Below are positions 307-41,265 of a DNA stretch of 41,357 nt, one piece after another (the first letter of the stretch is position 1; every line of letters begins with the position of its first letter). Made by a program: the position numbers and the translations under genes. The notes below the pieces were generated by a model. It was not told the DNA's origin. It was given only the letters and a program-made list of their open reading frames with translations, and did no database searches. The stretch spans positions 1 to 41,357 of the forward strand of contig JACQQX010000027.1 in assembly GCA_016206805.1 (NCBI GenBank), given 5' to 3'. Source of the DNA: Candidatus Omnitrophota bacterium. GTDB taxonomy: Bacteria > Omnitrophota > Gorgyraeia > 2-02-FULL-51-18.

Positions 307-327
307 AGGGGTCAAATCTTTTCTTGA
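55..327 (+). pseudogene. IS3-type transposase OrfA, 3' truncated
   Basis: OrfA of IS3 elements is the DNA-binding subunit that is normally fused to the OrfB integrase by programmed frameshifting. The first 84 or so residues show the typical HTH_Tnp_1 domain: KRYSREFKLEAVRMA, then a helix-turn-helix (VAEVARELDISVHHLYRWR), then a leucine-zipper-like start (ELTILRRENARLREERE). Family members continue with a motif of the form RDILKKA; here the frame runs instead into the REP sequence and ends after GQIFS. It is therefore a broken gene with no OrfB partner. The GTG start at 55 is supported by the upstream GAGAGG. Confidence 0.8.
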
Positions 328-334
328 CTGCATG
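307..334 (+). repeat. REP-like repeat, left flank of the Y1 transposase gene
   Basis: The sequence is the reverse complement of the repeat unit that occurs six times at 1321-1574, so the Y1 transposase gene lies between inverted REP flanks. It contains GGGGTCAAATC and TTGACTGCAT. TTGACT (324-329) also serves as the likely -35 box of the transposase. Related copies lie near 40930-40977, 41108-41134 and 41188-41264. Confidence 0.8.
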
Positions 335-352
335 TCCCTTCTTTGATAGCGT
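324..352 (+). promoter_or_regulatory. Promoter of the Y1 transposase gene, supplied by the REP repeat
   Basis: TTGACT (324-329) is followed by a 17-nt spacer and TAGCGT (347-352). Six nucleotides then separate the -10 box from the ATG at 359, which predicts a leaderless transcript. The same geometry (TTGACT-17-TAGCAT-6-ATG) is seen at the decayed second copy at 40975-41010, and this conservation supports the call. No Shine-Dalgarno sequence precedes the ATG. Confidence 0.55.
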
Positions 353-358
353 GCCCTC

Positions 359-1345
359 ATGTCCAGACCTCTTCGCATAGAGTACCCAAACGCTTTTTAC
401 CACATCATGAACCGCGGAGCCAGCCGTCAGCCGATCTATCTTATCGATGACGACTACGAGATGTTTCTTGAAGCGGTTAAGGAATCGGCGAAGTTCTTCA
501 ATGTCCGGGTAATCTGTTATTGCCTCATGCCCAACCACTACCATTTACTGATCCAAACCCCCAAAGCCAATCTCTCCCGCGCCATGAGGCATTTAAACGG
601 CGTCTACACCCAGCGTTTTAACCGCCTTCACAAGAAAGACGGGCCCCTTTTTAGGGGGAGGTATAAAGCTATTTTAGTCCAGGAAGACGAATACCTGACC
701 CACCTTATTCGGTATATTCACCTTAATCCTGTCCAAGCCAACCTCACCCAAGACCTTTTAAAGTACCCCTGGACCAGCCACAAGGACTATTTAAAGGGCA
801 ACGATCAGGCTCCCTGGCTTCATGTGCGCTTGGGACTGGCTTTCTTCTCAAGCCAATTGGCCAAAGCTCTCAAGGAATACCGTCAATTCATGAAAGACGG
901 CGTTGATCTTAAAACTCTCTCGTTCTACAGCAAGAAGAAACTAAACCCCATCCTCGGAGACCCCGACTTCTTGAATCACATTAAAGAAAAGTATATTCTT
1001 ACCGACCGTAAGCTCTCCACCGAGATCCCCGAGGAACGCCAAATGACCGGCAATGCCATGATCCAACGCATCCTAAAGGAAACCTCCAGGGCATTTTCTA
1101 TCCCCAACGAAACGCTTTACAAGTCCAAGAGGGGAGAGCTAAACCAAGCTCGTCTGGTGGCTGTGGCTTTGTCGAGGGAGCTTTCAGGTCTTCGTTTGAG
1201 CGAGATCGCGGACCTCTTCCGCGCCAAATCCTACAGAACAATCGCCTCAAGCTGTCACCGGTTTAAAAAACTCCTGACATCTGATTCCGGCATGAGGCGG
1301 CGATACGGTGACATTCAAAAGAGATGCAGTCAGGAAAAGATTTGA
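359..1345 (+). CDS. REP-associated Y1 (IS200-like, HUH) transposase
   Basis: A 328-aa single-strand transposase of the RAYT/TnpA-REP type. These enzymes nick REP or REPIN hairpins through a tyrosine-DNA linkage. The HUH motif is in MPNHYHLL (H60 and H62). The probable catalytic Tyr is Y119 in LIRYIHLNP. After residue about 210 there is a C-terminal helical region (SIPNETLYKSKRGELNQARL, then RTIASSCHRFKKLL) resembling the DnaA C-terminal domain often fused in this subgroup. The gene starts 6 nt after a -10 box and has no ribosome binding site. Its last codons (KRCSQEKI) and stop lie inside the first right-hand REP copy. It appears intact and sits inside the truncated IS3 orfA. Confidence 0.88.
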   Translation: MSRPLRIEYPNAFYHIMNRGASRQPIYLIDDDYEMFLEAVKESAKFFNVRVICYCLMPNHYHLLIQTPKANLSRAMRHLNGVYTQRFNRLHKKDGPLFRGRYKAILVQEDEYLTHLIRYIHLNPVQANLTQDLLKYPWTSHKDYLKGNDQAPWLHVRLGLAFFSSQLAKALKEYRQFMKDGVDLKTLSFYSKKKLNPILGDPDFLNHIKEKYILTDRKLSTEIPEERQMTGNAMIQRILKETSRAFSIPNETLYKSKRGELNQARLVAVALSRELSGLRLSEIADLFRAKSYRTIASSCHRFKKLLTSDSGMRRRYGDIQKRCSQEKI

Positions 1346-1574
1346 CCCCTTCAGGACCCCTTCAGGCAAAAGAGATGCAGTCAAGAAAAGATTTGACCCC
1401 TTCACTTCACCAAGAGATGCAGTCAAGAAAAGATTTGACCCCTTCATCTTCACCAAGAGATGCAGTCAAGAAAAGATTTGACCCCTTCAGACCCCTTCAC
1501 TCAAGAGATGCAGTCAAGAAAAGATTTGACCCCTTCACCAAGAGATGCAGTCAAGAAAAGATTTGACCCCTTCA
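1321..1574 (+). repeat. Six-copy REP-like direct repeat array
   Basis: Six copies of a 33-nt unit (consensus GAGATGCAGTCAAGAAAAGA followed by TTTGACCCCTTCA) start at 1321, 1372, 1414, 1457, 1505 and 1542. Spacing is irregular (51, 42, 43, 48 and 37 nt). The spacers are short and themselves contain duplicated ACCCCTTCA pieces. The first copy encodes the end of the transposase. The array is inverted relative to the single copy at 307-334. Apparent ORFs through it (MQSRKDLTPS repeats) are artefacts of the repetition. Confidence 0.9.
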
Positions 1575-13077: not shown

Positions 13078-14211
13078 CGGTGAGTTTTTCGCGGGAATTG
13101 GGCGCGGATCTCAAAAAACTTCGCGCCAAAAAACTTGATCGCGCGCTGACCCTTTCCGATCCCAAACGGTTTATCAATTTTTCATCCAATAATTATCTCG
13201 GCCTGACCACGCATCCGCGTGTGGTGAGCGAAACGGTCCGCGCCGTCCGAAAGTGGGGGACGGGCAGCGGCGCTTCACGGCTTGTTTCCGGCAATCTTGA
13301 AATCCATTCCCTTCTGGAAGAAAAAATAGCCCGGTTCAAGAAAGAGGAGTCGTCCCTTCTTTTTTCTTCGGGATATCTGGCCAACTTGGGCGCGTTAACC
13401 GCCGTGGCGCGGGAAGGCGACGTTCTTCTGTTGGACCGGTTGAATCATGCCAGTCTGATCGACGCGGCGAAACTGTCCAAAGCGAAGTTCTGGGTTTACC
13501 CCCATGCGGACCTGAAGGCCCTTTCCGGGCTTTTGGACCGCGCGAAGCCATTCCGCCGGCGATGGGTGGTGACGGACGCTTATTTCAGCATGGACGGGGA
13601 TGTGGCGAATCTCGCGGACTTGCGCGCGCTTTGCCGGCAGAAAAATGCTTTGCTCATGATAGACGAAGCGCACTCCACGGGTGTTTTTGGAAAAAACGGC
13701 GGAGGGCTCACGGAGCATTTCGGGCTTTCGGGAGAGGTGGACATCGTGATGGGGACGCTTAGCAAGGCGCTGGCGTCTTCCGGAGGCTTCATCGCGGGGC
13801 CGCAAGCGCTGAAAGAATATCTGGTCAATCACGCGCGTGAATTTATTTATACGACCGCCCCCGTGCCGGCGGCTTCGGCGGCGGCGCTGGCCGCTATTGA
13901 AGTGGTTGAGGAAGAGCCCGGGCTCCGCGAGGAACTATGGCGGAACGTGACGCTTGTCCGGGAGGGACTGAAAGCGCTGGGATTCGATCTTTTAAATTCA
14001 CAAGGGCCCATCATTCCCATTGTTTTAGGGAACACCGCGCGGACGCTGGATTTTGAGGCCTTCCTGATGAAAGAGGGGATTTTGGCGCCGGCCATCCGGC
14101 CTCCGACGGTCCCGGCCGGCACCGACCGCATCCGCATTTCCATCATGGCCACGCATTCTAAAGCGGAACTCGCGAGATTATTGGCCGCGCTTAAAAAGGC
14201 CAGAAAGAAAT

Positions 14212-40898: not shown

Positions 40899-40929
40899 TG
40901 CGCCTGTTAGCGGCTGTATTTAAGCATTT

Positions 40930-40977
40930 AAGGGGTCAAGTCTCTCCTTGCAAGATAAGGGGTCAAGTCTCTCCTTG
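40930..40977 (+). repeat. Two REP-like repeats upstream of the Y1 remnant
   Basis: AAGGGGTCAAGTCTCTCCTT (plus G) occurs at 40930-40950 and 40957-40977, a variant of the left-flank REP at 307-334. The second is followed by ACT and thereby provides the TTGACT -35 box of the next gene. Confidence 0.75.
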
Positions 40978-41003
40978 ACTACTTAGTAGATTTACGATAG
41001 CAT
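40975..41003 (+). promoter_or_regulatory. Promoter of the decayed Y1 transposase gene
   Basis: TTGACT (40975-40980), 17 nt, TAGCAT (40998-41003), 6 nt, ATG at 41010: the same spacing as at 324-359 although the intervening sequence differs. Confidence 0.5.
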
Positions 41004-41009
41004 CGCCCC

Positions 41010-41129
41010 ATGTCCCGTCCTTTAAGAATCGAATATCCCAACGCCTTCTACCATGTCATGAATAGGGGATCTGCTCGTCAAGCCATTTACCTCGCTCATT
41101 TAAGTTTAAGGGGTCAAATCTTTTTTTGA
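41010..41129 (+). pseudogene. Y1 transposase gene, 5' fragment only
   Basis: The first 29 codons (MSRPLRIEYPNAFYHVMNRG, then SARQAIYLA) are homologous to the intact transposase at 359. The frame then enters a REP copy (41108-41134) and stops after GQIFF. HUH and Tyr motifs are absent, so it cannot be active. A REP pair with a deleted interior replaced the rest of the gene. Confidence 0.8.
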
Positions 41130-41265
41130 CTGCATGTCCCTTCTCCGATAGCGTTTTCTCATAAACGCTACACCAAAATTCATCAAACATGCAGTCAGAA
41201 AAAGACTTGACCCCTTAGACAAAATTCATCAAACATGCAGTCAGAAAAAGACTTGACCCCTTAGA
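41108..41265. mobile_element. REPIN-like inverted REP pair with tandem right unit
   Basis: A left REP (AAGGGGTCAAATC... to GACTGCATG, 41108-41134) faces right REPs (CATGCAGTCAGAAAAAGACT plus TGACCCCTTA) at 41188-41217 and again 46 nt later. The right unit is tandem, at 41174-41219 and 41220-41265. Between the arms, TAGCGTTT (41149-41156) and AAACGCTA (41163-41170) form a perfect 8-bp hairpin. The left 53 nt match the flank at 308-360 up to the transposase start, so this is a Y1 element whose transposase was deleted. Confidence 0.7.

Follow-up and report, generated by a model that had tools for sequence, protein, structure and literature searches.

Terminal inverted repeats of a TIRYT-type Y1 transposon as the putative source of a leaderless transposase promoter and of the transposase stop codon

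The question raised by this locus is whether a repeat placed just upstream of a Y1 transposase gene carries the -35 box of that gene. The window, i.e. the whole stretch of 41,357 nucleotides analysed here (contig JACQQX010000027.1 of a Candidatus Omnitrophota bacterium), holds two starts of Y1 genes with the same layout. At the first one, TTGACT (324-329) is followed 17 nt later by TAGCGT (347-352) and, after 6 more nucleotides, by the ATG at 359; at the second, TTGACT (40975-40980) and TAGCAT (40998-41003) precede the ATG at 41010 with the same 17 and 6 nt. The initial annotation reported this arrangement, noted that the intervening bases differ and took the geometry to be selected, each repeat copy being a REP that could act as a mobile -35 box. 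Its description of the layout is accurate: the 17-nt spacers share 6/17 bases and the 6-nt stretches 3/6, and the pattern TTGAC-N18-TANNNT-N6-ATG matches only at these two Y1 starts on either strand of the window, compared to a mean of 0.01 in 200 mononucleotide shuffles. It also listed two Y1 loci; both starts are present, but the second is only a fragment of 29 codons.

The complete gene (359-1345, forward strand) encodes a TIRYT-type transposase of 328 amino acids, with a PF01797 Y1 (HUH) domain (52.5 bits, cut-off 23) and a C-terminal PF08299 Bac_DnaA_C domain at residues 235-300 (34 bits, cut-off 31.5). Upstream of it, on the forward strand, lies a 31-nt left terminal inverted repeat (TIR; 306-336), the presumed REP of the initial annotation, which is the inverted repeat of 1321-1351 and 1372-1402; arms 306-336 and 1321-1351 are 94% identical. 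The core GGGGTCAAATCTTTTCTTGACTGCAT of the left TIR spans 308-333 (forward strand), and the candidate -35 box TTGACT (324-329, forward strand) is read directly in its inner arm. The candidate extended -10, TG-A-TAGCGT, occupies 344-352 on the same strand (TG 344-345), its hexamer being placed, again by direct reading, 17 nt from the -35 and 6 nt from the ATG. The right TIR (1321-1351, reverse strand) contains the last codons of the gene (SQEKI) and its stop TGA (1343-1345).

Five further right-end copies follow at 1372-1572 (reverse strand), making six right-end TIRs in tandem between 1321 and 1572, 37-51 nt apart and in a single orientation: the array has grown at the right end only. Doubled ends are also seen in other elements (L040, L053, L062, L083, L085, L094). 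A remnant of an IS3-type orfA (55-305) stands immediately 5' of the left TIR; the contig starts within it, which suggests that the assembly was interrupted by repeats on either side. The right flank beyond the TIR array is a different sequence. Folded as a single strand, the left TIR forms a weak hairpin (-2.9 kcal/mol, z -1.9); the repeat shows little propensity to fold in general (z -1.2 to -1.9), and this carries no weight in the argument.

Judged by sequence, such elements fit the TIRYT/TIRtron class and subclass 2.1 of Quentin 2018, and not the RAYTs associated with GTAG-REPs. TIRYTs, or TIRtrons, are presented in the relevant passages of Di Nocera 2013 (PMC3733652) as Y1 transposase genes between TIRs sharing the motif GGGGWSAS; in the window TIR, GGGGTCAA matches 7 of its 8 positions, and many relatives carry GGGGTCAG, which fits it. 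TnpA-Y1 subclass 2.1, with a Y1 and a Bac_DnaA_C/HTH C-terminal domain, is equated with TIRYT by the authors of Quentin 2018 (PMC6006769). RAYTs (REPtrons) with GTAG REPs resemble the window element in placing a Y1 transposase between inverted palindromes, and REPs may directly follow a RAYT stop codon, according to a passage of PMC2817692; they differ in lacking both the GGGGTC end and the promoter geometry of the window element. The window transposase scores below the cut-off of NF047646, the REP-associated tyrosine transposase (75.7 vs 80 bits). A search for the GTAG tag on the window repeat, which begins AGGGGTC, was negative. When up to 3 mismatches are allowed, the 1.39 Mb assembly (87.6% complete) contains 17 copies of the repeat, which is below the copy number of RAYT REPs (over 100 per genome). 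Among 27 typical RAYTs, with NF047646 scores of 190-212 bits, TTGAC at -38..-34 was found in 0/27, TANNNT at 6 nt in 2/27, a promoter in 3/27 and a GGGGTC end in none. The name REP is thus better replaced by TIR.

To compare the start regions across the family, a contig scan provided 80 loci with relatives, from which L067, L068 and L072 (5' end missing) and L080 (start codon missing) were dropped before all counts. Adding both starts in the window and another two from the same genome to the 76 usable ones gave 80 starts, or 75 non-redundant ones after removal of rows with at least 70% identity over 42 nt; L025, with ATC at the aligned start, was excluded from the control-ORF comparison onward. 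TTGAC occupies -38..-34 in 41/75 non-redundant starts. It is present there in 55% of 74 Y1 genes and in 3.0% of 267 control ORFs from the same loci; the proportions for TANNNT 6-7 nt ahead of the start are 38% and 3.7%, respectively. In the TTGAC-aligned class, where the -35 columns are 100% conserved because TTGAC defines the class, the columns between the boxes are mostly close to 0 bits, while T-G-n-T-A reaches up to 0.86 bits at the -10 position. TANNNT at a spacing of 16-18 occurs in 22/41 of these starts (mean 5.0 and maximum 12 in 2000 shuffles). As the spacer has diverged to background and the boxes have not, inheritance alone is insufficient to account for them. Column counts anchored on the ATG (75 starts) are blurred by spacings that vary by 1-2 nt.

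The hexamers themselves are less telling. A scan for the best hexamer is noisy, with the expected place found in 17/41 (shuffle mean 3.9). The window's TAGCGT is a weak -10, some members have predicted hexamers of middling strength, and with a plain -10 matrix the W1 and W2 spacers hold other, higher-scoring hexamers; the matrices are those generally known for E. coli, from which Omnitrophota and similar organisms may differ. With the full promoter score, 91/140 TIRYT-type starts have a predicted promoter 5-8 nt from the ATG at shuffle p<=0.05. Members without this spacing do exist, namely the remaining 49, of which 22 have a predicted promoter further upstream at p<=0.05.

Because the score penalises spacing and favours 17 nt, spacing was judged only from penalty-free counts, made on 94 non-redundant relatives with the TIR core and TTGAC. 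TANNNT follows the TIR-linked TTGAC at 17 nt in 52/94 and at 16 nt in 13, with at most 10 for any other spacing. When over 40 nt separate TTGAC from the ATG, TANNNT is found at exactly 17 nt in 12/13; the spacing of the boxes is therefore independent of the gene start. No other single observation speaks as strongly for a promoter as this persistence of the apparent -35/-10 pair in genes whose start has moved and which have acquired a leader.

The geometry was then followed in a hold-out of 285 genomes of the window's phylum, taken from part of the matches listed (80 regions and 29 new loci). It provided 95 further non-redundant starts, after L119 and L123 (no usable start) and L104, L156, L191 and L192 (start unsure or pseudogene) were dropped. 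TTGAC at -38..-34 is found in 34/61 long, TIRYT-type Y1 genes versus 0/34 short Y1 genes of the same genomes, TANNNT at exactly 6 nt from the start in 30/61 versus 0/34, and a promoter score with shuffle p<=0.05 in 39/61 versus 4/34. Together with the conserved spacing and the unconserved spacer, these counts uphold the proposal that the geometry is under selection. The promoter signal is weaker in a second hold-out (40 regions and 30 loci from the matches listed, 64 kept): it occurs in 14/37 lower-scoring Y1 genes, mostly in genomes belonging to the same class as the Vibrio locus, that is in 11/24 with a GGGTC core and 3/13 without it. One Y1 clade (L170, L172, L176, L179, L180, L181, L183) has TIRs that begin with GGGAC instead of GGGTC; it keeps the TTGACA-16/17-TANNNT geometry.

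The position of the -10 next to the gene points to a leaderless message. It ends 6 nt before the ATG in 64/87 cases, which places the start at the A; for the window gene, the predicted transcription start is the A of the ATG at 359. The start codon is ATG in 86/87, and the base at -1 is a pyrimidine in 79/87 (hold-out 37/38), compared to 51% at -6..-2. The remaining long Y1 genes likewise prefer a pyrimidine at -1 (73%, Fisher p 0.01), as do the short ones (67%), making it a supportive sign and not a decisive one. Shine-Dalgarno pairing of -6 kcal/mol or stronger is found in 28/34 short Y1 genes and in 11/61 long ones; among the latter, the median is -1.5 with the promoter and -6.8 without it (p 3e-6). 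Tree-aware independent pairs go in the same direction, as a trend only (median p 0.25, starred branches). A leaderless transposase mRNA is accordingly what the pyrimidine at -1 and the weak Shine-Dalgarno would predict.

How far the TIR itself contributes differs between lineages. A significant TIR was detected in 101/127 complete elements. In the 71 elements that have both a TIR and a predicted leaderless promoter, the -35 lies inside the TIR in 42, the window element included, partly inside in 6 and outside in 23; the -10 lies inside in 0/71. The outside cases belong mostly to one Omnitrophota clade whose TIR stops just before TTGACA. With 23/71 outside the aligned TIR, it is not a general rule that the TIR carries the -35; it appears to supply it in many lineages, not in all. 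Another two TIRYT genes of the source genome (48% and 44% identity) combine a different TIR (GTGTCAG) with the same TTGACA-17-TANNNT-6-ATG, indicating that the promoter is selected in itself.

At the other end of the elements, the transposase stop codon is within the right TIR in 82/101, an addition to what the initial annotation claimed. TGA followed by C[CA]C ends 67/127 of the genes, compared to 5/204 control ORFs and 5/36 short Y1 genes. The outer arm GGGGTCA gives TGACCCC when reversed and the inner arm gives TTGAC, so that one palindrome could serve both ends of the gene.

We assign a probability of roughly 0.86 to the reading that a TIR-borne -35 and an extended -10 form a sigma-70-type promoter for a leaderless transposase mRNA, with the inverse right TIR giving the stop. 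This Y1/HUH transposon would carry the -35 in the inner arm of its left TIR, and the extended -10 would lie 17 nt further in, inside the element. The positions of the boxes, their spacing, the link to the TIR, the missing Shine-Dalgarno and the stop in the TIR all come from comparison of sequences, and this family comparison supports the claim that the transposase promoter takes its -35 from the TTGAC of the repeat. RNA polymerase would then begin at the A of the ATG, and the resulting mRNA would need no Shine-Dalgarno sequence. The right copy, in inverse orientation, would provide the last codons and the TGA; one palindrome would act as transposition end, -35 box and stop codon, and the element would bring its own start signals to each new site.

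Other readings of the same signals have to be weighed. TTGAC could be kept only as a palindrome arm recognised by the transposase, its likeness to a -35 and its spacing being a chance inheritance: it is the reverse complement of the outer arm GTCAA, and right ends and other copies retain it with no -10. This account, very improbable in our estimate, is already hard to hold, since the 17-nt distance to TANNNT is found where the TIR sequence differs, TTGACA outside the aligned TIR still has a 16-17 nt spacing in 21/23, the distance survives removal of the ATG to another place (12/13), the spacer bases are at background and the -10 is never part of the TIR (0/71). It is just as hard to credit that the TGATA box near the ATG is a binding site for the transposase or a host factor. 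The extended TGnTA is indeed well conserved (TG in 33/87, G at its place in 54/87), and the box forms part of the mobile unit's left end and persists in MITE copies. Against this, it is absent from the TIR in all 71 cases, it stands at a distance from TTGAC that suits sigma-70, the -1 base and the start codon have the character of a start site, and genes without the box at 6 nt gain Shine-Dalgarno leaders.

Expression of the transposase by read-through of upstream host transcripts, with boxes of little use, was proposed for RAYTs in a passage of PMC3733652 and would suit the middling hexamers of some members; we consider it extremely improbable, as it explains neither conserved boxes around an unconserved spacer nor the loss of Shine-Dalgarno sequences. 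The broadest suggestion of the initial annotation, that every REP copy is a mobile -35 linking copy number to the expression of the transposase or of neighbours, has little chance of being right. Each copy has TTGAC on both strands, and MITE copies retain the whole left-end promoter. However, TANNNT at 17 nt is found in only 3/39 non-redundant copies not placed before a Y1 start, all three being left-end copies (W2 itself, a MITE and a left-end relic), and in 0/53 when reading outward from the left TIR. The same counts leave the link to neighbour expression unsupported.

Returning to the TIR-borne promoter, its -35 would lie within the binding site of the transposase, so the bound protein would switch off its own gene; this shut-off is a step further removed from the data than the leaderless start. 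Extra TIR copies would relieve the autorepression by titration. It is tentatively conceivable, at somewhat less than even odds, that the palindrome was selected for its three jobs throughout an entire class of single-strand transposons, with autorepression and TIR-copy titration as a built-in copy-number control. Such a control would work in many phyla, as a leaderless mRNA needs no Shine-Dalgarno match.

For the TIRYT class, this reading would give a concrete and testable answer on transposase expression, which PMC3733652 states to be unknown in the passages concerned. There, promoter analysis is said not to have been tackled, and whether REPs drive RAYT expression is called unknown and not favoured, read-through being thought more likely. 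The same source places TIRs at an about constant distance from the gene with no reason given, and the promoter geometry would explain it. The -35/-10 pair, the leaderless start and the stop in the TIR are not described in its TIRtron passages, the word promoter has 0 occurrences in the main text of PMC6006769, where passages on expression were not found, and our search of open-licence PMC papers found no description, for this class, of a leaderless start or of a -35 carried by the TIR. The elements also amount to an extensive natural collection of predicted leaderless promoters, with about 13 phylum labels in the record titles, and closely related leadered versions can serve as their controls.

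A comparable arrangement is known for DDE insertion sequences: in IS1 and IS911, the -35 of the transposase promoter is located in the left IR. The likeness consists in an end sequence doubling as -35, which allows autorepression by an end-bound protein; the transposase chemistry is different. Elements of the IS1/IS911 type are not known to have a leaderless start of this kind. A literature search did not find a paper matching the IS1/IS911 precedent.

The second locus of the window begins with a left TIR at 40956-40991 (forward strand), preceded by a partial tandem copy of it (40929-40950). It includes the -35 TTGACT and is followed by the putative -10 on the same strand and by the 5' fragment of the Y1 gene (41010-41102, forward strand), which comprises its first 29 codons, at 83% identity. 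The gene is cut at about 41104 by a third TIR element, a non-autonomous derivative that joins a left end to a right end (41104-41220, forward strand). It keeps the left-end promoter (-35 at 41126-41131, -10 at 41149-41154), with ATA replacing the ATG. A near-identical derivative of about 115 bp is found at G000:C49, around 13996-14108 (L009, L014); two such copies, one of them within a Y1 gene fragment, suggest recent mobility. The genome of the window also has a TIRYT fragment that is degenerate and contains two stop codons (G000:C15:26414-26560), as well as a short Y1 gene belonging to a different group (G000:C43:17526-17831).
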